A stretch of DNA of 64,000 bases, taken from Chelatococcus sp. HY11 (GTDB lineage Bacteria > Pseudomonadota > Alphaproteobacteria > Rhizobiales > Beijerinckiaceae). The notes below the pieces were generated by a model that saw only the letters and a list, made by a program, of their open reading frames with translations, was not told the origin of the DNA and searched no databases. Where the stretch lies: assembly GCF_018398335.1 (NCBI RefSeq), contig NZ_JAHBRX010000002.1:310001-374000 (forward strand). The letters are read 5' to 3'. Every line of letters starts with the position of its first letter. Within the stretch, counting starts at the first letter, position 1. Made by a program: the position numbers and the translations under genes. Shown one piece after another: positions 48,902-63,155 of the stretch.

Positions 48902-48932
48902 CGCGATCGAATAGCCCGCGTGAAAGCGGGCC

Positions 48933-48948
48933 GCCCGCCGTGGCGGGC
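48933..48948 (+). other. Short GC-rich hairpin in permease-sulfatase spacer
   Basis: A perfect inverted repeat, GCCCGCC and GGCGGGC, lies in the 66-bp gap before the sulfatase start, next to a second possible hairpin (CCCGC/GCGGG at 48916-48930). It may tune mRNA stability or reduce expression of the downstream genes relative to the importer. No T-run follows, so it is not a clear terminator. Confidence 0.4.
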
Positions 48949-48967
48949 CGGTTCAATGGAAGTGACC

Positions 48968-50515
48968 ATGAAAGCAGTCTTCGTTCTGTTCGATTCGCTC
49001 AATCGCCATATGCTCGGGGCCTATGGCGGCACGCGCGTGCCGACCCCGAATTTCGATCGGCTCGCCGCACGAAGCCTTGCCTACGACACCCATTACGTCG
49101 GCAGCCTGCCCTGCATGCCCGCGCGCCGCGACATGCTCACCGGCCGGCTGACCTTTCTCCATCGCAGCTGGGGTCCGCTGGAGCCTTTCGACAACGCCTT
49201 TCCCGAGCTTCTGCACAATGCCGGCGTCTACAGCCATCTGATCACTGATCACTTCCATTACTGGGAGGACGGCGGGGCGACCTACCACAACCGCTACGAC
49301 ACGTATGAATTCGTGCGCGGCCAGGAAGGAGATCCCTGGAAGGCGATGGTCCAGCCCCATTGGGAGCGGCTGCGCGAGATGTATCATGCCCGCCAGTTCA
49401 CCACGGAGCGGCGCGAGTATTTCTCGCAGAACATCATCAACAGGGAGTTCATCCGGGAGGAAAAGGACTTCCCCTCGGTTCAGTGCTTCGCGCATGGCTT
49501 CGAGTTCCTGGACCGCAACCGGGATGCCGACAACTGGCTCATGCAGATCGAGACCTTCGATCCGCATGAGCCCTTCACGGCGCCTGCCCGCTTCAAGCAG
49601 GCGTTCGACACGGGATGGACCGGCCCGATCCGCGATTGGCCCCGCTATGGCCGCGTCGACGAACTGCCGGAAGAATGCGAGGAACTGCGCGCCAATTATT
49701 ACGCCATCGTCTCGATGTGCGATTTCCTCATGGGCGAGCTGCTCGATTACTTCGACAAACATGACCTGTGGAAGGACACGGCGCTCATCGTCACGACGGA
49801 TCATGGCTTTCTGCTTGGCGAGCATGATTTCTGGGCGAAGAACCGCATGAATCTCTATGAGGAGATCGCCCATATCCCGCTCTTCGTGCACGATCCCCGC
49901 CATCCGCGCCCTGGCGAGCGCTGCGCCGCGCTGACCCAATCGGTCGATCTCGCGCCGACCTTTCTCGATCTCTTCGGCGTCGCATCCGCGCCTGAGATGG
50001 AAGGGCGCTCCCTCATCGCCGCCGCGCGCGGCGAACAGCTCCGCGATGCGGCGTTGTTCGGGTATTTCGGCGGGGCCGTGAATGTCGCCGATGGCCGTTA
50101 TACCTACCATCGCTTTCCGGCGGATCTGAACAACCAGGAAATCTACCAGTATACGCTGATGCCGACCCATATCTTCTCGCCGTTCTCGACGGAGGAACTG
50201 TCACAGGCGAGCCTCTCCAACGGCTTTCCCTTCACGAAGGGCGCGAAGGTGCTGAAGGTGCCGGTCACCGATCGCTCACCGATGTACAATGTCTACGGTC
50301 CCGGCGCGCTCATCGAGAATGGAACGCGGCTCTATGATCTCGCCAGCGATCCCGGGCAGGAGAAGCCGCTGACGGAGCCCCGGACAGAGCAACGGTTGAC
50401 CGACCTGATGAGCCGCTTGATGGCGGACAACGAGGCCCCGCCTGAGGCCTTCGCGCGTCTCGGCCTGACCGTGCCGGCATCGCGGGAAAGTGAAGAGGCT
50501 GCGACAGGGCCATGA
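48968..50515 (+). CDS. Sulfatase (alkaline phosphatase superfamily, formylglycine type)
   Basis: About 515 residues. CMPARRDMLTGR at residues 49-60 is the complete CxPxR-x4-TG sulfatase signature, so Cys49 should be converted to formylglycine. Metal ligands are visible as FDSLNRH (one Asp where typical sulfatases have two) and VTTDHGFLLGEHDFWAKN. There is no signal peptide, so it is cytosolic and would act after import of a sulfate ester. The ATG at 48968 is the best fit; one at 48956 is also in frame. Phosphonate monoester or phosphodiester hydrolysis is also possible in this superfamily. Overlaps the next gene by four bases. Confidence 0.88.
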   Translation: MKAVFVLFDSLNRHMLGAYGGTRVPTPNFDRLAARSLAYDTHYVGSLPCMPARRDMLTGRLTFLHRSWGPLEPFDNAFPELLHNAGVYSHLITDHFHYWEDGGATYHNRYDTYEFVRGQEGDPWKAMVQPHWERLREMYHARQFTTERREYFSQNIINREFIREEKDFPSVQCFAHGFEFLDRNRDADNWLMQIETFDPHEPFTAPARFKQAFDTGWTGPIRDWPRYGRVDELPEECEELRANYYAIVSMCDFLMGELLDYFDKHDLWKDTALIVTTDHGFLLGEHDFWAKNRMNLYEEIAHIPLFVHDPRHPRPGERCAALTQSVDLAPTFLDLFGVASAPEMEGRSLIAAARGEQLRDAALFGYFGGAVNVADGRYTYHRFPADLNNQEIYQYTLMPTHIFSPFSTEELSQASLSNGFPFTKGAKVLKVPVTDRSPMYNVYGPGALIENGTRLYDLASDPGQEKPLTEPRTEQRLTDLMSRLMADNEAPPEAFARLGLTVPASRESEEAATGP

Positions 50516-51492
50516 AGGCTTCCTCCGTCAGAATGCGATCGGGGGACTTGCGCCAGTTCGCGGCCGTCCGCCGGATCACGCTGGACGACGGCCCAGAACG
50601 GGGTGTGCGGGCGCTTGCCTTTTCCACGGGCGGCGGGCTCGATTTCTGGGTGCTGTCCGATCGCTCGCTCGACATCGGACCGTTGTGGTGGCGCGGCCTG
50701 CCGCTGGCCTGGCAAGCTCCCACCGGCTTCATGAACCCCGCCCTGCACCATGCGGAAGGCGACCAGGGCTTCGGCTTCAACAGAAGCTTCTCGGGCTTTC
50801 TCGTCACCTGCGGGCTCGACCATATCCGGCAGCCCACTGAGGGCCATCCCCTTCACGGCCGGCTGCCCTTCACGCCGGCGCGGGTGACGGCCTACGGCGA
50901 GGATTGGGAGCGTGACGAGCCCGTCCTTTTCTGCGAGGGCGAAGTCGTCCAGGCGCGCCTCGGCGGCGAGGCATTCCGCCTGAAGAGGCGTATAGAGGCG
51001 GGCATCGGCGGCGGCAGCCTCTGCATCACCGATGTGGTGGAGAACATCGGCACAGCCGTAAGCCCGCAGGCGAGCCTCTACCATTTCAATCTCGGCTTCC
51101 CCGCGCTCGCTGACGGAACATATGTCGAGCGCAACGGGCAGCGTCTCCTCGGTCCCCTGGTCGTGCCGGATGCCGCCGCGTCCCGCGACAGCGTCGCGAT
51201 GGCGATCGAGGATGGTGGCGGCGCGGGCTGCCGGGTCTTAGCGCCGTCGCTCGGACCAGCCGGGCTCGGCATCGATTTCGTCTGGGGACGGGAAACCCTG
51301 CCCTATCTCCAGCTCTGGCACGATCTGAGGCCACATATCTGCGTGCTCGGCATAGAGCCTTGCACCAGCGCGCGACGGGATGGCGGGCTGAGCGGTCCAG
51401 AAAATAAACTCGTGCCCGGTGAAAGGCGTATTTACCAATTACGAGTCACTATGCGCGAACTATCTGACGCTATTGATGTAACCGAGTTATAG
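50512..51492 (+). CDS. DUF4432 family protein (aldose 1-epimerase-like fold)
   Basis: A 326-residue protein. ERGVRALAFSTGGGLDFWVLSDRSLDIGPLWW in the first third is typical of DUF4432 galactose-mutarotase-like proteins (only the core SDRSLDIG is quoted as a motif). GFGFNRSFSGFLVTCGLDHI and the LHGRLPF segment with a conserved His resemble the active-site face. It is coupled to the sulfatase, so it probably processes the desulfated sugar, for example as an epimerase or isomerase. Function inferred. Confidence 0.8.
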   Translation: MKASSVRMRSGDLRQFAAVRRITLDDGPERGVRALAFSTGGGLDFWVLSDRSLDIGPLWWRGLPLAWQAPTGFMNPALHHAEGDQGFGFNRSFSGFLVTCGLDHIRQPTEGHPLHGRLPFTPARVTAYGEDWERDEPVLFCEGEVVQARLGGEAFRLKRRIEAGIGGGSLCITDVVENIGTAVSPQASLYHFNLGFPALADGTYVERNGQRLLGPLVVPDAAASRDSVAMAIEDGGGAGCRVLAPSLGPAGLGIDFVWGRETLPYLQLWHDLRPHICVLGIEPCTSARRDGGLSGPENKLVPGERRIYQLRVTMRELSDAIDVTEL

Positions 51493-51975: not shown

Positions 51976-53745
51976 TCAGTTCGCCTGTTCGAGAACGCTC
52001 GGAGAGGTCGCGGCTCTCAGCTTCGCCGTCGCCGCCTCGTCGATGGCGAGCGGGGCGGGGCGGATAGCCACGGCGTAGATATCACGCGCTGCCTCAATCG
52101 ACACGAGGCCGGCGCGCACATCGCCAAGCACACGCGCGGGATCACGCAATTTCGGTGCGCCGAACCCGCCCGCGCCGGCCGTGCGCATGCTGAGCACGTC
52201 CCCCTTCTTCAGAGCATAGGTTCCCTTGGAGTGGAGATAGCGCTCCTCCGGCGTATCGGGGTTGAGAACGGTGGCGGCGCAGATGCCGGAAAGGCCGCCT
52301 TCCAATCCATAAGGCTGGTTCTCGTAGCGGTCGCCGAGGTTGGTGACGAGCCCGACGTCGGCGACAAGGCGCAGGTCCTTGCGCAGCGCCATGCCGCCGC
52401 GAAAACGCCCTGCCCCGGCTGAGTCGGGAATGAGCTCCATGCGCTCGATGAAGACCGGCGCATTCATTTCCTGCACCTCGACCGGCGTGTTCGTGCCATT
52501 GGTGGGCGAGGTGGTCGCTTCCTGGCCGTCGCGGTGCCGGTGCGCGCCGACGCCGCCGACCGCCGACATCCATGCCAGGAACGGCTTGCCCGTGAAGGGG
52601 CTGACAGCACCGCTCACCTTGGGATTGCAGAAGCCGGAGCTTGCCGTGATGACGCGGTCAGGGACGACCTGGGCGAGAGCGCCCATCACCACCTCGTAGA
52701 TGCGGTTGGCAGTCACCGCGCGCGCGCCGCTGGCGGCGCCCGGCCTCGGATTGACGAAGCTGCCCTGGGGCGCCCGGATCTCGATGCAGCGGATGATGCC
52801 GAAGTTCTGCGGTGCCCGCGGCAAAGTCACGGATTTGACCGCGGCGATGCAATAGGAGCGCGTATATTGCATATAGGCGTTCATGCCGGCTTCGCGCTGC
52901 GGGCCTGTGCCCTCGAAGTCGCAGATGATGCGGTCCTCGGCGATGGTCAAAGCCATCTGCATATGCACGGGTTCGGTGCCCGGGCCGACGTCGTCGAGCT
53001 TGTCCGAGAAGTGGTAGGTGCCCTTAGGCAACTCGTCGATGGCGGCGAGCATCGCCTCCTGGCTTTGCACCAGGATCTGGCGCATGCACGCTGCGAACTG
53101 CTCCGGGCCATACTGCTCGGCCAGCGCGCGTATGCGGTTGGCGCCCACCATGTTCGCGGCAAACTGCGCATGAAGGTCGCCGATCACGTCCTTGACGCGC
53201 ACATTGGCCTCGACGATACGCAGGATCTCGCGGTTCGGCTCCCCGTTCCTGAACAGGAGCGTGGGAAGAAAGCGGATGCCTTCCTGGCAGGTCTCGCGGA
53301 CGCCGACGACCTCCTCGCTGCCGGGGGCACTCCCGCCAACGTCGATATGGTGGGCGATGTTGACGGCATAGCCCACCAGCCGCTCGCCGAGATAGACCGG
53401 CGTCACCATGAAGAAGTCGGGGAGATGACCTGAGCCGATGGTCGGGTCATTGCAGATCACGGCGTCGCCCGGCCCGAGGCTGCCGACCGGATAGTAGTCC
53501 AGCATCTGGCGCACGGTGAACGCCATCGAGCCGAGATGGCCCGGGCTGTAGTCGCCCTGCGCCACCATATTGCCCTCCGCGTCGAAGACGCCGGTGGAGA
53601 AGTCGGATCCTTCACGCACGGTCATGGAGTAGGCGGTGCGCAGGAGCGTGCTGCCCATCTCAGCGGCCGTTGACAGAAGGCCGCCCCAGACCACCGAGAA
53701 GGTCACGGGGTCGATGGTCGTGTCCAAGGGTTCGATCGAGCTCAT
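51976..53745 (-). CDS. hyuB: Hydantoinase B/oxoprolinase family protein
   Basis: A 589-residue subunit of an ATP-dependent hydantoinase/5-oxoprolinase-type enzyme that opens a lactam or hydantoin ring. DPVTFSVVWGGLLSTAAEMG at the N-terminus, DAVICNDPTIGSGHLPDF with metal-ligand residues, NIAHHIDVGG, and GAGRFRGGMALRKDL are family hallmarks. It starts 11 bases after the HyuA stop. Characterised relatives act on N-methylhydantoin, 5-oxoproline or (in acetone/acetophenone carboxylases) ketones. Substrate unknown. Confidence 0.92.
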   Translation of the reverse strand: MSSIEPLDTTIDPVTFSVVWGGLLSTAAEMGSTLLRTAYSMTVREGSDFSTGVFDAEGNMVAQGDYSPGHLGSMAFTVRQMLDYYPVGSLGPGDAVICNDPTIGSGHLPDFFMVTPVYLGERLVGYAVNIAHHIDVGGSAPGSEEVVGVRETCQEGIRFLPTLLFRNGEPNREILRIVEANVRVKDVIGDLHAQFAANMVGANRIRALAEQYGPEQFAACMRQILVQSQEAMLAAIDELPKGTYHFSDKLDDVGPGTEPVHMQMALTIAEDRIICDFEGTGPQREAGMNAYMQYTRSYCIAAVKSVTLPRAPQNFGIIRCIEIRAPQGSFVNPRPGAASGARAVTANRIYEVVMGALAQVVPDRVITASSGFCNPKVSGAVSPFTGKPFLAWMSAVGGVGAHRHRDGQEATTSPTNGTNTPVEVQEMNAPVFIERMELIPDSAGAGRFRGGMALRKDLRLVADVGLVTNLGDRYENQPYGLEGGLSGICAATVLNPDTPEERYLHSKGTYALKKGDVLSMRTAGAGGFGAPKLRDPARVLGDVRAGLVSIEAARDIYAVAIRPAPLAIDEAATAKLRAATSPSVLEQAN

Positions 53746-53756
53746 GACAGGCGCTC

Positions 53757-55838
53757 TCAGCTGAGTTCGGTGACAAGATTGCCATGCGGATCGACACGCG
53801 TTGTGCTGTCGGGCGGCAGGACGATGGTGGATTCGCGCTCCTCGACGATGGCAGGCCCTTTGACCACATCGCCCGCGCTGAGACGGTAGCGGTCATAGAC
53901 GGTGCAGTTCGTGAAACCGTCCGTCTCGGGAAACCAGACCTGGCGCACGCCCTTGACGGCACGCGTCACGTCACCCTCGAGTGGCTCGAGATCCTCCATG
54001 GTGAGGACCGAGCCGATAGCGGTTGCCCGCAGGCGCCAGTGCACACCGACGACATCCCAGCCGGTTTCGAAGGTGCGCGCGCCATAAGAGCGCGCATAGG
54101 CTTCGAAAAAGGCCTCGCGCAGCGCGGGAAGGTCCGCCGCCGTGTAGGGATAGGGCGGCAGATCGACCGCGATCTCGTAGCCCTGACCGGCGAAGCGCAT
54201 GTCACAGCTCGCCGTGAAGCGCTGGCGCTCCGGACTAACGCCGGATCGCTCCATCTGCTCGCGGGCGCGCGCCTCCAAATCCGCGAACAGGGCGTTGAGG
54301 GTCGGGATGACGGCCTCGTCGAGGGTCATGACCTGCGTGCGCGCAAGATCGAGCGAGGTCTCCGCCATGAGGAGGCCGACCGCGGATTCGACGCCGGCCG
54401 CGCGCGGAAACACGACCTTTGGGCAGCCGAGCATGCGGGCAAGCCGCGCACCATGGACCGGGCCCGCCCCGCCGAAGGGCACGAGCGCGAAGCTGCGCGG
54501 GTCCTTGCCGCAGCTGATGGTGACAGCCCGCGCGGCCTGGGCCATCTGCTGGGTGACGATCTCGTGGATGCCCCATGCGGCCTGCATGGTATCAAGACCA
54601 AGCGGCTGGGCGATCTCGCGGTCGATGGCCTCTCTGGCGCCAGCTCCGTCAAGGCTCATCTCGCCGCCGAGGAAATAGTCAGGATTGAGGTAACCGAGCG
54701 TCAGGTCCGCGTCAGTCACGGTCGGCCGCTTGCCGCCTCGGCCGTAACAGACGGGCCCCGGCACCGAGCCCGCGCTCTCCGGCCCGATCGAGATACCGCC
54801 GAGCTCGACCTTGGCGATCGAGCCGCCACCCGAACCGATCTCGATCAAGTCGACGGCAGGGATGCTGACGGGAAGGCCGCTCCCCTTCTTGAGATGGGTC
54901 ATGTCCACCTCGAACTGGCTCGTCAGAAGCGGCTTGCCGCCTTCGACGAGACAGAGCTTCGCGGTGGTGCCGCCCATGTCGAAGGAAATGAGGTTGTCGG
55001 TGCCCGCCGCCGGTGCGAAGCGGGCGGCCGTGAGGACACCGGCCGCCGGCCCGCTCTCGATGATGCGGATCGGAAAGCGCTTGACCACATCGGCGGTGGC
55101 AACGCCTCCGTTCGATTGCATGATCAGCATGGGCCCATCGACGCCCATGCGCTTCAGCTCCTCGTCGAGCCGCTCCACATAGGTGGCGACACCCGGCATG
55201 ACATAGGCGTTCATGACCGTCGTGCTGGTGCGCTCGAACTCGCGATAGAGCGGCGAAACGTCGGAGGAGATCGAGACCATGATCTCCGGCACCTCTTCCC
55301 GGAGGATCGCCTCGACCCGCCGCTCGTGATCGGAGTTGGCATAGCTGTGCAGGAAGCAGACGGCGACCGCCACGATGCCATTGGCGCGGAGCTGTTTCGC
55401 CACGTCACGCACGGCCGCCTCGTCGAGCTCCGTTTCGACCGAGCCGTCCCAAAGCATGCGCTCCGGCACCTCGAAGACATGGTGACGGGGCACGAGCGGA
55501 GCCGGACGGCCCGCCGCGTTGTCGTAGAGCTCCCAGCGCTTCTGACGGCCGATCAGGATCACGTCGCGAAAGCCGCGTGTGGTGATCAGGGCCGTCGGCG
55601 GCCCCTTCCGCTGAATCACCGTGTTGGTGGCTATCGTCGTGGCATGCACAACCTCGGAGACGGCCGACATATCACGCGAGCCCGACGCCATCAGGCCACG
55701 CAAGCCTTCAAAGACCGCCTCCGCGGGATCCGCCGGCGTGGAAAGCACCTTGCCGATATTGAAGCTGCCCGTCTCCGGATCCAACACGGCGAAGTCCGTG
55801 AAAGTACCGCCGATATCGATGCCGATACGCAGACCCAT
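53757..55838 (-). CDS. hyuA: Hydantoinase A/oxoprolinase family protein
   Basis: A 693-residue ATP-binding subunit. GIDIGGTFTDFAVLD near the N-terminus and FDMGGTTAKLCLVEGG in the middle are the two phosphate-binding motifs of the actin/acetate-kinase-like fold. GSGGGSIAKVELGGISIGPES and PCYGRGGKRPTVTDADLTLG parts are also conserved. It partners HyuB, phosphorylating the ring amide oxygen before hydrolysis. The palindrome GTTTAGCTAyTwAAC lies 24 bp upstream of its ATG and also upstream of the importer operon, suggesting joint control with ligand uptake. Confidence 0.93.
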   Translation of the reverse strand: MGLRIGIDIGGTFTDFAVLDPETGSFNIGKVLSTPADPAEAVFEGLRGLMASGSRDMSAVSEVVHATTIATNTVIQRKGPPTALITTRGFRDVILIGRQKRWELYDNAAGRPAPLVPRHHVFEVPERMLWDGSVETELDEAAVRDVAKQLRANGIVAVAVCFLHSYANSDHERRVEAILREEVPEIMVSISSDVSPLYREFERTSTTVMNAYVMPGVATYVERLDEELKRMGVDGPMLIMQSNGGVATADVVKRFPIRIIESGPAAGVLTAARFAPAAGTDNLISFDMGGTTAKLCLVEGGKPLLTSQFEVDMTHLKKGSGLPVSIPAVDLIEIGSGGGSIAKVELGGISIGPESAGSVPGPVCYGRGGKRPTVTDADLTLGYLNPDYFLGGEMSLDGAGAREAIDREIAQPLGLDTMQAAWGIHEIVTQQMAQAARAVTISCGKDPRSFALVPFGGAGPVHGARLARMLGCPKVVFPRAAGVESAVGLLMAETSLDLARTQVMTLDEAVIPTLNALFADLEARAREQMERSGVSPERQRFTASCDMRFAGQGYEIAVDLPPYPYTAADLPALREAFFEAYARSYGARTFETGWDVVGVHWRLRATAIGSVLTMEDLEPLEGDVTRAVKGVRQVWFPETDGFTNCTVYDRYRLSAGDVVKGPAIVEERESTIVLPPDSTTRVDPHGNLVTELS

Positions 55839-55861
55839 CTCACACCCCTCTCTGGGACGAT

Positions 55862-55880
55862 TTGTTTAGCTACTTAACAA
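55862..55880. promoter_or_regulatory. Palindromic operator upstream of hyuA, copy 1
   Basis: TTGTTTAGCTACTTAACAA has inverted half-sites TTGTTnAG and CTnAACAA. Its core GTTTAGCTAyTwAAC also occurs at 60907-60921, upstream of the importer gene. Position just before the HyuA start fits repression. Confidence 0.65.
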
Positions 55881-55931
55881 CGACTTGGAAGTCAGATCAA
55901 CCCGTTCGTCGGCGCAGCGACACATATTTTT

Positions 55932-55950
55932 ACTATATTCTACATATAGT
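55932..55950. promoter_or_regulatory. AT-rich inverted repeat between importer and hyuA genes
   Basis: ACTATAT and ATATAGT are perfect 7-bp arms around TCTAC, in a strongly AT-rich stretch about 95 bp upstream of the HyuA start and 80 bp beyond the fused ATPase stop. It could hold the hyuA promoter (TATAGT as a -10 box on the minus strand) or another operator. Confidence 0.45.
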
Positions 55951-56028
55951 TACGAAGAACAGCTGCGATCGCGTGGCAGGTCCGCGTGAACGCCACGGTC
56001 GGTATCACCTCGTCTAAGAGAGCCGCGA

Positions 56029-57723
56029 CTAAACGGCGGCCTGGGCCTTCGCCGCCTTGTCCCGTCCAAGGCCGAGATAGGCCTCCTGGATCGCCGGGTC
56101 GTTGCGCAGCTTCGCCGCTTCGCCCTCCAGAACGACGACGCCGTTGCGCAGAACATAGGCGCGATCGACCAGCTCCAGCGCGTGATTGGCGCTCTGCTCG
56201 ACCATGATGATCGTCAGCCCCTGTGCCTTCCAGCGCGCGAGGATCTCGTAGACGCGGTCGACCATGAGCGGCGACAGGCCCATGGACGGCTCGTCGATGC
56301 ACAGAATCCGCGGCCGTCGCAGCCAGGCGCGCGCCATCGCCACCATCTGCTGCTCGCCTCCGGACAAGGTGCCGGCAAGCTGGCTCAGCCGGCTGCCAAG
56401 CCACGGAAATTCAGCGATCACGTGCTCCAGGTCTTGTTCGAGCTTCTTCGAATCCCCTTTGCGGCGCGAGAAAGCGCCCATGAGCAGGTTGTCGCGCACG
56501 GTCAATTCCGCGAACATGCGTCGCCCTTCGGGAATGGACGCGACACCCTGGTCGATCACCTCGGCGGTGGTGCGCGCTTCCAACGGCTTGCCGAAGAAAT
56601 CAACCTCGCCCTTGCGCGGCTGCACGAGCCGCAGCACGGTCTTGATCGTGGTCGACTTGCCAGAGGCGTTGCCGCCGAGAACGGCGACGGCCTCCCCGCG
56701 ATTGACATGGAGCGACACGTCGAACAGGGCCTGCACCGGTCCGTAGAAGACATCGACGTTCTTGAGCGCCACCGCGGGCGTCGCGGGATCCCCGGGTAAA
56801 TCCTGCTCCGGGCCATGCTGGAGATGGCCGCCGTTTGTCGCCGCGGACGAGGCCGGCACAGTGCCGCTGATCGCCTTGCCGAGATAGGCTGCGGTCACCT
56901 CCGGATGCGCGAAGGCAGCGTCCGGCGTATCGTCGATGATCGCCCGGCCATGCGCCATGACGATCGTGCGCTCCGCCAAGCGGCGCACGATGTCGAGCTT
57001 ATGCTCGATCATGATGATCGCCATGGCGGGGAAACTCTTGCGCAGGTCAATCAGCAGGTCCGCCAGCTCATGGCTCTCGGTCGGATTCATGCCCGCCGTC
57101 GGCTCGTCCAGGAGGAGCACGTCCGGCGCGGCCGCGAGCGCGCGGGCGATATCGAGGCGCCGGCGATTGGCGTAGGAGAGACTGTGCGAGGGCTTGTCCT
57201 TGCGTGAGAGCAGCCGATCACCGAACAGCGCCATGACCGCGTCGGCCCGCTGCCGCGCCTCCTCTTCGGCGCGGCGATAAGCCGGAAGCCCGAATAGGGC
57301 CGCGATGGGTTCCGCGAAGGCACCGAAACGCTTGGGCTTAGCACCACCGCCGATCAATGCACGCTGAGTGCCGACCATCACGCTATCGGCGATCGTGAGG
57401 GCGGGAAACACACGGCTCGTCTGGAAGGTGCGCGCCACGCCGAGCGCGGAAATCGCCTCCGGCGAGCGCCCGTCCAGCCGGGTGCCCTTGAAGGTGATCT
57501 GCCCGGCCGTTGGCCGCACGAAGCCCGTGATGGTCTGCACGAGCGTCGACTTGCCGGCGCCGTTAGGGCCGACGATGCCGATGAACTCCCCCGGGCGGAC
57601 ATGGATGGTGACGCCGTCGATGGCCTTGAGGCCGCCAAAGCTTACGCTGACATCCTCGATCGAGAGCCCGTCGGCGGCCTTGGGCGGCGCGGCCAGCGGG
57701 CGATGAAGCACAGCGACCGTCAT
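56029..57723 (-). CDS. Fused branched-chain amino acid-type ABC ATPase (LivG-LivF in one protein)
   Basis: A single open frame of 564 residues containing two complete ATPase cassettes. The first (LivG-like) has Walker A GPNGAGKST at 52-60, the signature SLSYANRRRLDIARAL and Walker B LLLDEPTAGMNP. After a linker rich in Pro, Gly and Ser, the second (LivF-like) has GGNASGKST, signature LSGGEQQMVAMARAW and Walker B LCIDEPSMGLSP. No stop or frame change separates them. The ATG at 57723 shares one base with the permease stop. The frame is open further upstream, but that is permease-gene antiphase. In most bacteria these are separate genes. Confidence 0.92.
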   Translation of the reverse strand: MTVAVLHRPLAAPPKAADGLSIEDVSVSFGGLKAIDGVTIHVRPGEFIGIVGPNGAGKSTLVQTITGFVRPTAGQITFKGTRLDGRSPEAISALGVARTFQTSRVFPALTIADSVMVGTQRALIGGGAKPKRFGAFAEPIAALFGLPAYRRAEEEARQRADAVMALFGDRLLSRKDKPSHSLSYANRRRLDIARALAAAPDVLLLDEPTAGMNPTESHELADLLIDLRKSFPAMAIIMIEHKLDIVRRLAERTIVMAHGRAIIDDTPDAAFAHPEVTAAYLGKAISGTVPASSAATNGGHLQHGPEQDLPGDPATPAVALKNVDVFYGPVQALFDVSLHVNRGEAVAVLGGNASGKSTTIKTVLRLVQPRKGEVDFFGKPLEARTTAEVIDQGVASIPEGRRMFAELTVRDNLLMGAFSRRKGDSKKLEQDLEHVIAEFPWLGSRLSQLAGTLSGGEQQMVAMARAWLRRPRILCIDEPSMGLSPLMVDRVYEILARWKAQGLTIIMVEQSANHALELVDRAYVLRNGVVVLEGEAAKLRNDPAIQEAYLGLGRDKAAKAQAAV

Positions 57724-59600
57724 CAGCGAACTCCCGCAATGCCCTGCGGACGGAACCGCAGCGTGAGGTAGAGGATCGCGCCGAACAGGATCATCCTGTA
57801 ATCGGCGAAGTCGCGAAGGACTTCCGGCAGGACCAGAAGGAGCACGGCTCCGATCAGCGCGCCGGCGAGATTGCCGAGCCCGCCGAGGACGATGATGGCC
57901 ACCATCAGGAAGGAGCTGTCGAGCCGGAAGCTGTCGGGGCTGATGAAGCGGTGCAGGAAGGCAAAGGCCCCCCCGGCAAGGCCGGCGCAGGCCCCCGCCA
58001 ACGCGAAGGACGTGACCAGATAACGCCGCACCGGCAAGCCCGCCGCATGGGCCGCCACCCGGTCCTCGCGGATCGCGCGCCAGCTGCGACCGACCGGCGA
58101 GGCCAGAAAGCGCCCCGCCGCGAAGATCGCGAGCACCAGCAACGCCAGCGCCTGCCAGTATTGCGCCGCGAGACTGCTCATCGACACGCCGGGCGCCACC
58201 AGAAGGCGGGGCCGTGGAATGCCGAAGATCCCGTTCGGTCCGCCGGTCACATCCGTCCAGTTCAGAAGAACGAGCCAGATAAGCACGCCCATGGCCAATG
58301 TCGCGAGGCCGACCACGTGGCCTGTCAACGAGGAGCACAACAGGCCGACCAGAGCCGCCAGGATAGCGGTGGAGACCGCCGCGAGCAGAAAGGCGAACTC
58401 GGCGGGCACGCCCCACAGCTTGGCCGCGAGTGCCGCCACATAGGCGCCGACGCCGAAGAAGCCGGCGAAACCGAGAAACATGATGCCCGCCGCGCCCGAC
58501 AGCATCGTCAGGCCAACGCTGAGCAGTGCGAAGATGACGATGACGAGGCCGACCTGAACGATGTAATCTGACAGGCCGACGAGCGGCAGGAGCGCCAGGA
58601 CCGCAACGCCCGCCGCGAGCCAGCCATAGGGTATGGTCAGCGGGCGACCTGTCATCAGCGGCTGGCCACCCTGCCCGATCATGATGCTGGTCGACGGCAT
58701 CACGCCCGAGGCGCCGCGCGAACCGCCGAGCGCATCCAGGCGCTTGTCGCCGAGGAGGCCCTGCGGGCGGATGGTGAGAATGAGGAGCAGCAGGCCGAAG
58801 GCGACCATGTCGCGGAAGCCCTCCCCGACATAGCCGACGGCCAGTGCCTCCAGCACGCCGAGCAGAAGCCCTCCCACGACGGCGCCGGGAATGCTGGCAA
58901 GCCCGCCGAGCAGCGCGGCCGTGAAGCCCTTGAGCCCGAACGGTACGCCCATCTGCGGATAGAGGTTCTGGTAGTACATCGCGACCATGACGCCGGCGAT
59001 GGCGGCGAGTGCTGCGCCCAGGCCGAAGGCGAGCTGCCGCAGCCGGTCAGTCGGAACGCCCATCTGGCGCGCCGCATCGAGATCCTGGGACATCGCCCTG
59101 AGTGCCCGGCCGGACCAGGTGTGGGTGAGGAACAGCCAAAGGCTGACCATGATGATGAGCGACAGGACCAGAATGGCGATATCGACGCCGGTGATATAGG
59201 CCGCGCCGACGACCCAGCTGTAGTTGGAGAACGGGCTCGGGAAGCGATGCGCCTCAGGCGTCCAGATGATCTCCGCCGCCTGGTCCAGCATGAAGGTGAG
59301 CGCCAGCGTGGACAGAAGCGGCGCGATCCAGGGGGCATTCTCGAGCGGGCGCAGCGCGATGCGCTCGATCGCCATGCCGAGGAGCGTCGTGCCGAGGATC
59401 GACGCGATGACGGCGACGCCGAGCGGTAGCCCCAGATTGATGCCCGTGTAGGCCAGGAACGCGCCGAACATCAGCAGCGACCCTTGCGCGAAATTGATGA
59501 GATTGGTGACGCCGAAGATCAGCGAGAAGCCGATCGCAACGAGCGCATAGACGTTGCCGATGACAAGGCCGTTCAGGATCTGGCTGAAGAACTCGATCAT
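57723..59600 (-). CDS. Fused branched-chain amino acid-type ABC permease (LivH-LivM in one protein)
   Basis: A 625-residue protein with two permease domains in one frame. The first (LivH-like) has NGLVIGNVYALVAIGFSLIF, GVTNLINFAQGSLLM and RAMSQDLDAARQMG, the last being the coupling loop. The second (LivM-like) begins near residue 340 with SDYIVQVGLVIVIFALLSVG and has SWRAIREDRVAAHAAG as its loop. Some 15 or more membrane segments are likely. I start at the ATG at 59600, since the TTG 57 bases upstream adds nothing homologous. Both importer half-pairs are fused, giving a two-chain membrane complex. Confidence 0.92.
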   Translation of the reverse strand: MIEFFSQILNGLVIGNVYALVAIGFSLIFGVTNLINFAQGSLLMFGAFLAYTGINLGLPLGVAVIASILGTTLLGMAIERIALRPLENAPWIAPLLSTLALTFMLDQAAEIIWTPEAHRFPSPFSNYSWVVGAAYITGVDIAILVLSLIIMVSLWLFLTHTWSGRALRAMSQDLDAARQMGVPTDRLRQLAFGLGAALAAIAGVMVAMYYQNLYPQMGVPFGLKGFTAALLGGLASIPGAVVGGLLLGVLEALAVGYVGEGFRDMVAFGLLLLILTIRPQGLLGDKRLDALGGSRGASGVMPSTSIMIGQGGQPLMTGRPLTIPYGWLAAGVAVLALLPLVGLSDYIVQVGLVIVIFALLSVGLTMLSGAAGIMFLGFAGFFGVGAYVAALAAKLWGVPAEFAFLLAAVSTAILAALVGLLCSSLTGHVVGLATLAMGVLIWLVLLNWTDVTGGPNGIFGIPRPRLLVAPGVSMSSLAAQYWQALALLVLAIFAAGRFLASPVGRSWRAIREDRVAAHAAGLPVRRYLVTSFALAGACAGLAGGAFAFLHRFISPDSFRLDSSFLMVAIIVLGGLGNLAGALIGAVLLLVLPEVLRDFADYRMILFGAILYLTLRFRPQGIAGVR

Positions 59601-59723
59601 GTGCCGCGTCGCTCCGGATGGGAGGATCGGAAGACCCGCCGCGACAAACGCGGACAAGGCGCGGATAAGTCCAGGATCGGGATCGCGGGCGGATCGTCAA
59701 ATGATCAGCCCGCGATGCATATA

Positions 59724-60845
59724 TTACTTGTGGGGCGCGTAGGTATTGCCCTTCACGACGATATAGTTGATCTGGCGCGGGCCAAGATCGCCGGATCCCT
59801 CATACTTCAGCGTGCCGCTCACACCCTGCAGGGGAGCCGCCGCGGCGATCTGGTCGCGAATGGCCTGACGCGTGATCGGCGTGCCCTTGGCGGCCAGCGC
59901 CTCCATTGCCTTCGTCACGATGAGCATGGCGTCGTAGGTAAAGGCCGAGTAGTAGTTCGGCGCCTTGCCGAACTTCGCCTCATAGGCCTTGCTGAAGGCG
60001 GCCGACTCCGGTGCCTCGGCCAGGAATGGCGTCGGCATGACGACCCCTTCCGCCGCGCCGCCCGCGAGCTCGATGAACTTGGGATCGTTGAGCGTATCCG
60101 TGCCGGCCACCTTCATGTTCGGATCCGCCTGACGGAGCTGCTGCATGAACAGGGCGGATTCCGCGTAGTGGCTGACAAGGAAGATGCCATCAGGCTTCGC
60201 GGAGAGAATCTTGGTGATGAGCGGACGGAAATCTCGCGTCTCCGGAATCATAGCCTCTGACAAGACAACCTCGGCGCCGGCCTCCTTCAGCGCTTTGGAG
60301 ACCATGGTATTCGTCACCATGCCCCAATCGTCCTTGAAATAGACCAGGGCGATCTTCTTCATGCCCATCACCTTGGTCAGGAGATCGACATGGGGTTGCA
60401 CCATCGATGCGTGAGTCGGCGTCGTCCGGAACTGGTAAGGACTGATCTTGACATAATCCGGATGGCCGGCCGTCGGAGCCACTTGCGCGATATGCGCTTC
60501 CGCCAGAATAGGGCCGGCAGCCATCGACTCCGTGCTCGTCTGGCCACCGATGACCGCCAGCACCGCCGGATCCTGCGCAAATTTCTGGGCAATATTCGCC
60601 GCCTCACGCGGCACGCCCCGGCTGTCTTCGACGCGAACCTCCACGAGACGGCCGCCAATGCCGCCCTTTGCATTGATTTCACCCACGAACATGTCGGCGG
60701 CTTCGCGAAAACGCAGGCCCAGCGCCGAGCGTTCGCCGGTCATCGGACCGAACATGCCGATCACCAAGGGATCCGCAGCGCGGGCCGGGGCCCCCGCGAT
60801 CAGAGCGGCGAGCGTTCCCGCCAGCACGATTCCTAATCCACGCAT
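59724..60845 (-). CDS. Branched-chain amino acid-type ABC substrate-binding protein (LivJ/K family)
   Basis: A 373-residue periplasmic protein. The signal peptide ends near residue 23 (APARA-ADP). PLVIGMFGPMTGERSALG and the following domain with GGQTSTESMAAGPIL fit the type I periplasmic binding fold. First gene of the importer operon and 61 bp downstream of operator copy 2. Homologues bind amides, amino acids or urea, so a hydantoin, carbamoyl amino acid or lactam ligand is a reasonable guess given HyuAB next door. Confidence 0.92.
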   Translation of the reverse strand: MRGLGIVLAGTLAALIAGAPARAADPLVIGMFGPMTGERSALGLRFREAADMFVGEINAKGGIGGRLVEVRVEDSRGVPREAANIAQKFAQDPAVLAVIGGQTSTESMAAGPILAEAHIAQVAPTAGHPDYVKISPYQFRTTPTHASMVQPHVDLLTKVMGMKKIALVYFKDDWGMVTNTMVSKALKEAGAEVVLSEAMIPETRDFRPLITKILSAKPDGIFLVSHYAESALFMQQLRQADPNMKVAGTDTLNDPKFIELAGGAAEGVVMPTPFLAEAPESAAFSKAYEAKFGKAPNYYSAFTYDAMLIVTKAMEALAAKGTPITRQAIRDQIAAAAPLQGVSGTLKYEGSGDLGPRQINYIVVKGNTYAPHK

Positions 60846-60905
60846 GTGATTTACCCCTCTGGTCTCTCATTGCAGGAGACTTTGGCTCGCCGAGCGAGTG
60901 ACAAA

Positions 60906-60922
60906 AGTTTAGCTATTAAACT
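60906..60922. promoter_or_regulatory. Palindromic operator upstream of importer operon, copy 2
   Basis: AGTTTAGCTATTAAACT is a 17-bp inverted repeat with arms AGTTTA and TAAACT. It shares the core GTTTAGCTAyTwAAC with the hyuA site. A possible half-site, AGCTAAAC at 61155-61162, lies nearer the HTH-protein gene in the same 360-bp divergent spacer; I saw nothing else in the spacer. Confidence 0.7.
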
Positions 60923-61205
60923 CGTCGCGCAACAAGCTTAAATTTTATCCAGCGCGAAATACTTTTATAGCCGCACCGCCAGCGGCAATGATTGTGCTTA
61001 TTTTGGAGGATCTTATTGCGCAAACCCCTGAATCACGCCGCAGTGCGGGGCTGTCAGCCAAGCCTTTCGCAAGAGGGAAAAGCGCCGTCCGATCAGCGCA
61101 AATGCCGCTAAAACGTGCAGACGCAATCCGTGCGACTTAACGAGCAGTATCGCGAGCTAAACATTTTACTTGCGGGTGAGCACGGGCTCAGGCTCTTATG
61201 TCGGC

Positions 61206-61724
61206 ATGTCACGTATTGCCTCGCCCAGCGCCATCGCAACGCCCTCCGGATCCGCCCGGGAATTCGAGCTCTATGACGAGCTCATGCCCGTTCGCCGGTA
61301 CAAGATGCTCCTGCAGGCTTTTCTCAAGCGGCGCGGTTCCGGCAGCCGGCAGGCTATTGCCGAAGCGCTTGGCAATACGCGCAGCTTCATTACCCAGATC
61401 ACGAGCCCGGCCTATGATCTCGCGATCCCCGCGCAGCATGTCCGCACCATCGTCAAAATCGCGGGGCTGCGGCCGAACGAAGAGCGCATGTTCCTCGACG
61501 CCTATATCGCCGCCCATCCCGAACGGGCCTCGGAGATCCTGGGGCGCGGGCAATCGGGACCAGGCAGCGCCACGATGACCTTGAGCATTCCGCAGCTCTC
61601 AAACCCAGCCGCGCAGCGCCGCCTGGAAGCACTGATCGAACGCTTTGCCCGTGACGTAGCCGCCACCATGATCGCCAACGAAGCGGACATGGCGGCCCAC
61701 GAGGACCTGGGGGATCAGCCGTGA
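61206..61724 (+). CDS. Helix-turn-helix-like protein, candidate regulator of the hydantoinase/importer cluster
   Basis: About 172 residues. RRYKMLLQAFLKRRGSGSRQAIAEALGNTRSFITQITSP region (quoted core SRQAIAEALGNTRSFITQI) looks like an XRE-type helix-turn-helix, followed by HVRTIVKIAGLRPNEERMFL, a helical segment usual after such domains. The C-terminal third is helical and uncharacterised. I start at the ATG at 61206; a TTG at 61170 is also open. No strong ribosome site is seen. It is divergent from the importer operon and coupled to the DUF1028 gene, so it is the likely binder of the shared palindrome. The family is not one I can name. Confidence 0.7.
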   Translation: MSRIASPSAIATPSGSAREFELYDELMPVRRYKMLLQAFLKRRGSGSRQAIAEALGNTRSFITQITSPAYDLAIPAQHVRTIVKIAGLRPNEERMFLDAYIAAHPERASEILGRGQSGPGSATMTLSIPQLSNPAAQRRLEALIERFARDVAATMIANEADMAAHEDLGDQP

Positions 61725-62416
61725 ACAATCCGCTCGATCTCGGCGGCGTCATGCTCAGCGTGCTTGCCTGCGATCCGCGCGACCAGACCCTTGGCATCGC
61801 GCTGGCGTCGTCCGCGATCGCCGTCGCGGCCCGCTGCCCCTATCTCGTCGTCGGCAAGGCCGTCGTCGCGAGCCAGGGCTTCAGCAACCTCAAAGTGGGG
61901 CCACTCGCGCTGGACCTGATCCAATGCGGTCTCACCGTCCAGGAAACCATGCAGGCGCTACGCCAGCACGACCGCTGGATGGACTACCGCCAGATCGCCA
62001 TCGTGGCGGCCACTGGCGAAATCGAGGTGCATACGGGGCCGATGAACGTGAACTGGGCCGGCCATGTCGGCGGCAGTGGCTTCGTGTGCCTTGGCAATGG
62101 CCTGCCAGACCCGTCCGTGCTGGCCGCCATGCAGCGACGTTTTGTCGACGGGCACGGGCGGCCGATGGCGGAGCGGCTTCTGGCGACCCTGGAAGCCGTG
62201 CGCGGCCATCTCGGACCCGAAAGCCCGCTTGTCTCCAGCTCACTTCTCGTGCGCTCCCCGCACGAGGCCGTTCATATCGATCTTCGGGTCGATCTCGCGC
62301 GCGATCCGCCGGAAGCCGGCGGCTGCGCGCTGACTGATCTACGTCGTCTGTTTGACCGTTACCTGCCTCTCACTGAAATTTACCAGAAACGTTCCATGTC
62401 GCCACATCCGACCTGA
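61721..62416 (+). CDS. DUF1028 family protein, first of a tandem pair (Ntn-hydrolase-like)
   Basis: A 231-residue protein of the DUF1028/COG3342 family, annotated as Ntn-hydrolase-like. GFSNLKVGPLALDLIQCGL and the WAGHVGGSGFVCLGNGL motif are diagnostic. The GTG start overlaps the regulator stop by four bases. A possible internal ATG at 61751 begins MLSVLACDPRD, equivalent to MTFTIVARDPD in the second copy; if used, the residue after Met is Leu rather than Thr, so the putative N-terminal nucleophile of active members would be missing. Function unknown; likely processes a hydantoinase-pathway intermediate. Confidence 0.82.
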   Translation: MNNPLDLGGVMLSVLACDPRDQTLGIALASSAIAVAARCPYLVVGKAVVASQGFSNLKVGPLALDLIQCGLTVQETMQALRQHDRWMDYRQIAIVAATGEIEVHTGPMNVNWAGHVGGSGFVCLGNGLPDPSVLAAMQRRFVDGHGRPMAERLLATLEAVRGHLGPESPLVSSSLLVRSPHEAVHIDLRVDLARDPPEAGGCALTDLRRLFDRYLPLTEIYQKRSMSPHPT

Positions 62417-62450
62417 TTGGCCGGGGGCGCCACGGCAAAGGAGGAATGAT

Positions 62451-63155
62451 ATGACCTTCACCATTGTCGCCCGTGACCCAGACACCAGGCAGCTCGGCAT
62501 TTGCCTTGCCACGAGCCCCCTCGGCGTCGCATCTCGCTGTCCCCATGTCCGCGGCGGTGTCGCCGCCATTTCCTCCCAGTGCCACAGCAACTGGCGGCTC
62601 GGCCACATCGGCCTCGATCTCGCCGCCCGTGGGCTGACGCCTGACGAGATCCTGCGCCTGCTCGCGAGCTACGATCCGCATTTCCATGATTACCGCCAGG
62701 TCGGTATCGTGACGATCGACGGCGCCGCCGCGGCGCATAGCCCGCCCAAGGGTGCCGCCTGGACTGGCCATCGCGTGGGTCATGGATTCGTCGCGATGGG
62801 TAACGGCCTCGCCGGTCGCCAAGTCGTCGATGCGATCCACGACAGCTTCGCGGGAGACCACGGCGTTGATTTCGCCGAGCGGCTTGTCCGCGCCATCGAG
62901 GCCGGCTACGCCGCCGGCGGCGAGCCCAAGGGCCAGGCCTCCGCCGGCCTCGTCGTCTCCGCGCCGGACTGTGAGCGCCCCCTCGTCGACCTGCGTATCG
63001 ACATGGCCAGTCCATTGCCCAAGGACGGCGGCGACGCGGTCAAGGACCTGCGCCGCGCCTTCGATGCCTACAAGCCGCTTATTCCCTACTATGCCGACTA
63101 TTGGCTCGATCATCCCGAAGTCAGCTACACCGCGTGGCAGGAGAAGGCCGCCTGA
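62451..63155 (+). CDS. DUF1028 family protein, second of a tandem pair (Ntn-hydrolase-like)
   Basis: A 234-residue DUF1028 protein. MTFTIVARDPDTRQLGIC is the family N-terminus, with Thr2 as candidate nucleophile after Met removal. WTGHRVGHGFVAMGNGLAG matches the conserved central motif. GGAGG at about 62440-62444 precedes the ATG at 62451; the frame opens 99 bases earlier across the first gene's end. Roughly one third of residues appear shared with the upstream paralogue, so the duplication is old. It may be an N-terminal-nucleophile amidohydrolase acting on the ring-opened product. Confidence 0.87.
   Translation: MTFTIVARDPDTRQLGICLATSPLGVASRCPHVRGGVAAISSQCHSNWRLGHIGLDLAARGLTPDEILRLLASYDPHFHDYRQVGIVTIDGAAAAHSPPKGAAWTGHRVGHGFVAMGNGLAGRQVVDAIHDSFAGDHGVDFAERLVRAIEAGYAAGGEPKGQASAGLVVSAPDCERPLVDLRIDMASPLPKDGGDAVKDLRRAFDAYKPLIPYYADYWLDHPEVSYTAWQEKAA

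Follow-up and report, generated by a model that had tools for sequence, protein, structure and literature searches.

A 64,000-nucleotide stretch of the Chelatococcus sp. HY11 genome (the window) carries an eight-gene cassette that is a real, rare, and co-regulated unit, and that most likely serves to import an amide compound and break it down with the help of ATP. Structurally, the cassette is made up of two divergent groups (Table 1). Five minus-strand genes encode a Liv-type binding protein, its permease (LivHM), its ATPase (LivGF), and the two subunits of a HyuAB-type enzyme, and the plus strand encodes a helix-turn-helix (HTH)-like protein followed by two proteins of the DUF1028 family, here DUF1028a and DUF1028b, the start of DUF1028a overlapping the stop codon of the HTH gene. 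The two firmest new points are the pairing of a predicted catalytic with a probable non-catalytic DUF1028 protein, and the link between the regulator and its operator. An initial annotation of the window had listed these genes and their strands, all of which are present with clear Pfam matches, the HTH protein excepted; the range it gave to the block, 53757-63155, leaves HyuB outside.

The grouping of these genes into one conserved, co-regulated unit, as originally proposed, is supported, also outside the order of the host. Searching 84,980 species genomes for a pair of short DUF1028b peptide patterns gave 18 loci. Three of these, in Chelatococcus asaccharovorans (L082), Tropicimonas (L083), and Poseidonocella (L084), hold all eight genes in unchanged order, with protein identities to the window of 91-99%, 52-79%, and 55-79%, respectively (the HyuB ends of these cassettes were completed from L204-L206), and the operator recurs with them. 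A fourth cassette, in an Afifellaceae metagenome-assembled genome (L086, the G231 stretch), has six of the eight genes, namely those for the HTH protein, both DUF1028 proteins, and the Liv importer; no HyuAB was found in the 20 kb covered there, extending about 3.4 kb beyond the ATPase gene. L085 and L087 contain a DUF1028b relative that has no other protein of the eight within 10 kb, the relative in L088 sits in a different gene run, discussed below, and the remaining 11 loci are distant (40% identity or less). Close DUF1028b proteins are found in all four genomes of the host genus examined and, at 60% identity or more, in 2 of 397 genomes of its order (its own and G231); Tropicimonas itself is the only carrier among 390 genomes of its order. 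This patchy spread suggests transfer of the cassette. No plasmid copy was found, however: the 301 plasmid records with a DUF1028 match all fall below 60% identity, the top-listed at 38.9%.

Table 1. Features of the cassette, in window coordinates
Feature	Position	Strand	Basis
HyuB, metal-site subunit of putative ATP-dependent cyclic-amide hydrolase	51976..53745	-	PF02538 3e-155
HyuA, ATP-binding subunit	53757..55838	-	PF05378/PF01968/PF19278 (Hydant_A_N/Hydantoinase_A/Hydant_A_C)
Operator-like palindrome, 5' of hyuA	55864..55878	.	motif scan; four Chelatococcus genomes only
Fused LivG-LivF ATPase	56029..57723	-	two ABC_tran stretches, one chain; start codon assigned by eye from reading frame
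Fused LivH-LivM permease	57723..59600	-	two BPD_transp_2 stretches, one 625-aa chain
Liv-type periplasmic binding protein	59724..60845	-	PF13458 2.6e-61 (Peripla_BP_6)
Operator-like palindrome, 5' of binding-protein gene	60907..60921	.	counterparts in L083, L084
Half-site GCTAAAC, 5' of HTH gene	61156..61162	+	motif scan
HTH protein, probable DNA-binding regulator of cassette	61206..61724	+	no Pfam/NCBIfam match; predicted all-helical
DUF1028a, probable non-catalytic paralogue	61721..62416	+	PF06267 1.2e-45
DUF1028b, predicted N-terminal-threonine Ntn hydrolase	62451..63155	+	PF06267 8.4e-51

The start codon of DUF1028b is followed directly by Thr, an arrangement that is conserved in its relatives. 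Thr occupies the nucleophile position in all 50 distinct DUF1028 relatives compared, standing directly after the start codon in 40 of them; the other 10 carry a leader, which in 7 ends in ELN. In an alignment drawn from several phyla (A2), Thr is likewise present in 17 of 17 DUF1028 proteins other than DUF1028a. Such conservation is as expected for an N-terminal threonine nucleophile. The structural model of DUF1028b (predicted local distance difference test, pLDDT, 93.9) has as its top match the DUF1028 protein SPO2555 (PDB 2imh), which has the same fold (TM about 0.8) and is the only solved DUF1028 recovered by sequence search, followed by proteasome subunits from E 5e-5 at a TM of about 0.4. 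As modelled, DUF1028b is a protein of the N-terminal nucleophile (Ntn) fold, of proteasome type, and we predict that it is an N-terminal-threonine Ntn hydrolase whose Thr2 is exposed by removal of Met.

DUF1028 had originally been assigned to the Ntn-hydrolase superfamily. Of the two proteins, DUF1028b alone has the nucleophile Thr; in DUF1028a, the position is held by Met (window, L082, L083, and L084) or Gly (L086). With the nucleophile Thr missing from all five cassettes, DUF1028a is probably non-catalytic. In a 63-sequence tree, the five DUF1028a proteins form one clade (98/91) on longer branches, placed with weak support (89/60) as sister to the DUF1028b clade. From the nucleophile pattern and the tree, the tandem seems to have arisen by an old duplication that yielded one catalytic and one non-catalytic copy. 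Alternatively, DUF1028a may be active by means of a different residue, or once processed, in which case the tandem would be two enzymes with different substrates. Its retention in every cassette as a single clade would fit, as would its YRQ motif and the Asn of a GN pair, but the replacement of Thr by Met in four copies and Gly in the fifth, at a position that none of the 50 other members has changed, renders this improbable.

DUF1028 proteins are widespread, with matches at E 1e-20 in 144 of the 397 genomes from the order, although no publication naming DUF1028, COG3342, PF06267, or IPR010430 turned up in the literature searched. Compared with known DUF1028 loci, the cassette differs in its tandem with a nucleophile-less paralogue. 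It also has a Liv-type importer where DUF1028 loci elsewhere frequently have peptide-type importers: in 32 of 57 loci, a binding protein of the peptide type is encoded near DUF1028, and the two members checked are SBP_bac_5 proteins. For this family the cassette offers a predicted catalytic residue, together with a natural inactive paralogue as a control. Separately, four other DUF1028 loci (L105, L128, L131, and L139) have a common neighbour, a reading frame that presumably resembles 4-hydroxyphenylacetate 3-monooxygenase.

The operator-like sites described in the initial annotation are present in the window. The exact palindrome GTTTAGCTAYTWAAC lies 61 bases 5' of the binding-protein gene, as stated there, and 25 rather than 24 bases 5' of hyuA, and the half-site ahead of the HTH gene was also found. 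These are the only two exact copies in the 6.95 Mb genome, in which two further places match with 2 mismatches. A scan of the window at up to 3 mismatches gives just the same 2 sites, against a mean of 0.29 matches in 100 shuffles of the window, 2 of which reached 2 matches. When the 360 intergenic bases of the window were shuffled, TTTAGNNNCTAAA was matched as well as in the real sequence in 51 of 3000 trials, so the window alone is only moderate evidence for the palindrome; shuffles of the intergenic regions of L083 and L084 gave an equally good match in 0 of 3000 each. The relaxed pattern TTTAGNNNCTAAAC is present 5' of the binding-protein gene in Tropicimonas (as TTTAGAAGCTAAAC) and Poseidonocella (as TTTAGGAGCTAAA). 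Four genomes, together about 27 Mb, contain 10 distinct sites that fit this pattern at up to 1 mismatch, and 6 of these are within the cassette. CTAAAC 5' of the HTH gene is kept in the window and in L082-L084, with L084 carrying a full palindrome, TTTAGGCTACTAAAC, at this place. The binding-protein site is conserved across genera, whereas the hyuA site is seen only in the four Chelatococcus genomes and not in L083 or L084.

The protein that may read these sites matches no Pfam or NCBIfam family and hence no curated HTH family. Its predicted structure is all-helical (pLDDT 70.6), and a fold search gave weak matches (best E 0.2, probability up to 0.99) that include lambda repressor and restriction-controller proteins. 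Of 249 genomes of the order, 53 encode relatives of it. Among 30 short loci containing the HTH gene, 2 (own and G231) are the cassette, and in 27 of the 28 others EI and Dak1 relatives lie on either side of the gene (Pfam names confirmed on L044 and L048). The HTH gene of these dihydroxyacetone-kinase operons (Dak2 - EI - HTH - Dak1) belongs to the same protein family as that of the cassette (34-44% identity), and among the matches listed we found no published name for it. The operons also have the same GTTTAG half-site word. Their half-sites are usually 14 bases apart, compared with 3 in the cassette, a difference of 11 bases or about one helical turn; one locus, L041, has the spacing of 3, with one mismatch, as in the cassette. 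Long flanks were examined for 16 of 54 HTH places, comprising the G231 cassette, 14 dihydroxyacetone-kinase loci, and one locus that is neither (L046). Of the 14, 7 have an exact N13-14 site and L041 has its spacing-3 site. In L039, L040, and L045, the first gene reaches the end of the stretch, or nearly so, and the promoter falls outside it, and in G167, the genome of L040, a GTTTAG-type site lies just past that end. The GTTTAG-N14-CTAAAC sites are mostly about 9 kb 5' of the HTH gene, just upstream of a gene for a solute-binding protein (Pfam SBP_bac_1/8 in L042, L044, and L050) or, in L048, of Dak2. Examples from L036-L050 are L042:474-499, L044:14131-14156, and L048:6757-6782, and the sites amount to a predicted regulon across many alphaproteobacteria.

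Genome-wide, GTTTAG-N13-15-CTAAAC is present in 29 of the 53 genomes with the HTH gene and 14 of the 196 without it (Fisher p 2e-13, kinship ignored), and the N14 spacing alone in 27 of 53 and 3 of 196 (Fisher p 3e-18, kinship ignored). In the 29 HTH-bearing genomes, 29 of 34 sites fall within 12 kb of the HTH gene. Because the sites track HTH-bearing genomes and mostly lie near the HTH gene, the HTH protein probably binds GTTTAG half-sites. When ten window proteins were searched in 15 of the loci with long flanks, only the HTH protein and general ABC-transporter proteins found matches, which makes the HTH protein the likeliest reader of the word. The originally proposed link between this protein and the palindrome thus finds support outside the cassette as well as within it.

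Several results weigh against this assignment. The HTH model is only moderately confident, with no fold match below E 0.001, and ABC-transporter genes are likewise common to the cassette and the dihydroxyacetone-kinase systems. Three (L036, L037, and L047) of the 11 loci with the promoter region covered show no tested spacing at up to 1 mismatch, and 24 of the 53 HTH-bearing genomes have no exact N13-15 site, own and G231 included. L086 has the HTH protein but no GTTTAG palindrome. The last two points would also fit GTTTAG/CTAAAC being a core-promoter element or the site of another regulator, with a different role for the HTH protein. CTAAAC has what we take to be a resemblance to the alphaproteobacterial -10 box, and by eye the sites appear to overlap possible promoter boxes. 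However, each genome has next to no further copies of the inverted arrangement, which is close to the HTH gene, and of the ten window proteins in the 15-locus search only the HTH and general transporter proteins are shared, so we regard these alternatives as improbable and retain the HTH protein as the candidate reader. A promoter scan found no consensus promoter, so any case for repression is drawn from the position of the sites, judged by eye, relative to possible -35/-10 boxes. At the position of the missing palindrome, L086 has a different inverted repeat, ACATATT-N9-AATATGT (L086:8552-8574).

The HyuAB component is well preserved in its catalytic residues. HyuA has DIGGTFTD at 8, DMGGT at 287, and GSVPGP at 357, which correspond to the phosphate motifs DxGGTxTD and DxGGT and the adenosine motif GxxPGP that PMC8453981 defines for HyuA-type subunits. 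These motifs, as well as Asp48-His107-Asp110-His132 of HyuB (window numbers), are present in 4 of 4 cassettes. In caprolactamase, mutants at the metal and phosphate residues are described in that paper as having activity abolished or nearly so, and HyuA Asp8 and Asp287 and the four HyuB residues align with these positions, the HyuB four with the CapB metal ligands. Caprolactamase CapAB and the ATP-dependent lactamases share with the window proteins the HyuA and HyuB domains (Hydantoinase_B in Pfam for HyuB), the phosphate motifs, and the Asp-His-Asp-His site. By domains and motifs, the window HyuAB can be placed as a putative member of the ATP-dependent lactamase/hydantoinase group. It differs from CapAB in scoring well under the NCBIfam CapA/CapB cut-offs NF050156/NF050157 (551 and 250 vs 1000 bits) and in that HyuB has no adjacent Cys pair to match the vicinal disulfide of CapB. 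The best solved relative is N-methylhydantoinase (PDB 7hk5; 453 bits for HyuA and 234 bits for HyuB), followed for HyuA by 6yra; 7hk5 is a single 1288-aa chain, whereas the window has two proteins in a Liv/DUF1028 cassette. Comparison of the HyuA/HyuB pockets gave no substrate.

How closely HyuAB belongs with the DUF1028 proteins is less straightforward. The initial annotation had counted it as part of the unit, and it is kept in three genera, yet it is separable, not adjoining the L086 cassette. HyuA or HyuB is found within about 8 kb in 0 of 40 other DUF1028 loci (controls 0 of 40), and we rejected HyuAB as a general DUF1028 partner on this count; because of it, HyuAB is regarded as an add-on, separable module. 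DUF1028 is likewise within about 9 kb of 0 of 17 other HyuA loci of the host genome, whose HyuA homologues at E 1e-100 number at least 18 (L214 and L244-L260), compared with 11 or fewer in the other 60 genomes searched. One of these loci, L245, has three HyuB-like stretches beside one HyuA. These two absences count against a joint role for HyuAB and DUF1028, as does the HyuB of L088, which did not match simple metal-ligand patterns. In L088, a different HyuAB subfamily forms one run with a DUF1028b relative at 52% identity, a TOBE-type ATPase, and a protein of the SBP_bac_8 type; a LacI regulator is encoded divergently from this run. Its HyuAB was rejected as an ortholog of that of the cassette, since the HyuA is 36% identical to the window protein and 47-51% identical to three other copies of the host genome. 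That two HyuAB subfamilies adjoin the same DUF1028b clade argues, from few loci, for a working link within this clade and not for DUF1028 at large. L209 and L210 have the L088 layout minus HyuAB, DUF1028 there being accompanied by a regulator of LacI type and an importer of SBP_bac_8/TOBE type.

It could be that the importer and DUF1028a/b are the working unit, acting on a linear amide or small peptide, and that HyuAB is a promoter-captured neighbour with an unrelated target. The six-gene core of L086 and the importers of L209 and L210, both without HyuAB alongside, are in keeping with this, as is the general company of DUF1028 described above: in the 40 other loci, which have no HyuAB, ABC ATPases are nearby in 34 (14 of 40 controls), and the peptide-type binding proteins are frequent. 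Yet capture does not readily account for the adjacency and orientation of HyuAB being kept in Chelatococcus, Tropicimonas, and Poseidonocella, for the second subfamily in L088, or for hyuA having its own palindrome in Chelatococcus. On balance we find capture rather unlikely, and prefer to treat HyuAB as a working, if separable, part of the cassette.

The importer has all the parts of a Liv/HAAT system, with a binding protein, two permease domains, and two ATPase domains. It shares the LivHM and LivGF domains with the branched-chain amino-acid importers of this class but differs in that the permeases are fused into one chain and the ATPases into another. LivHM is 64-99% identical across 625 positions in L082-L084 and L086, and LivGF has full-length matches in the same loci. 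The best solved relative of the binding protein is 3hut, and comparison with solved relatives gave no ligand.

Taken together, we think it reasonably likely that this is a catabolic cassette with its own regulator, working as follows. The HTH protein would bind GTTTAG/CTAAAC half-sites at the divergent promoters, and in Chelatococcus also 5' of hyuA, and may repress the cassette as long as neither the substrate nor a derivative is present, activation being the less favoured option given where the sites lie. The Liv-type importer would then bring in a small compound containing an amide. In the cytoplasm, removal of Met would leave Thr2 of DUF1028b as the N-terminal nucleophile for cleavage of an amide bond, with DUF1028a, its nucleophile lost, serving as a structural or regulatory partner in a putative a/b complex. 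HyuAB, where present, would use ATP to open a cyclic amide (lactam, hydantoin, or imide), and the order of these steps is likewise provisional. A more specific version is tentative, and we would lean slightly against it as a whole: DUF1028a/b would be a two-subunit Ntn hydrolase acting in series with HyuAB on one imported cyclic amide, and the HTH proteins an undescribed regulator family reading GTTTAG half-sites in two unrelated systems, with the spacing shifted by one helical turn. The cassette gives DUF1028 a partner enzyme of known chemistry in HyuAB and an importer binding protein that can be screened for ligands, and the inducer of the regulator should point to the cassette substrate. 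The regulator, with its half-site, also makes a testable prediction for the dihydroxyacetone-kinase operons of many alphaproteobacteria.

To the left of HyuB lies a sulfatase and DUF4432 gene pair (48920-51492). Its inclusion in the unit is unsupported, as the pair is missing beside HyuB in Tropicimonas (L205), and Poseidonocella (L206) is uninformative because its contig stops about 0.6 kb after HyuB. The pair does adjoin HyuB in the window and in L204, L207, and L208, all of which are from Chelatococcus.

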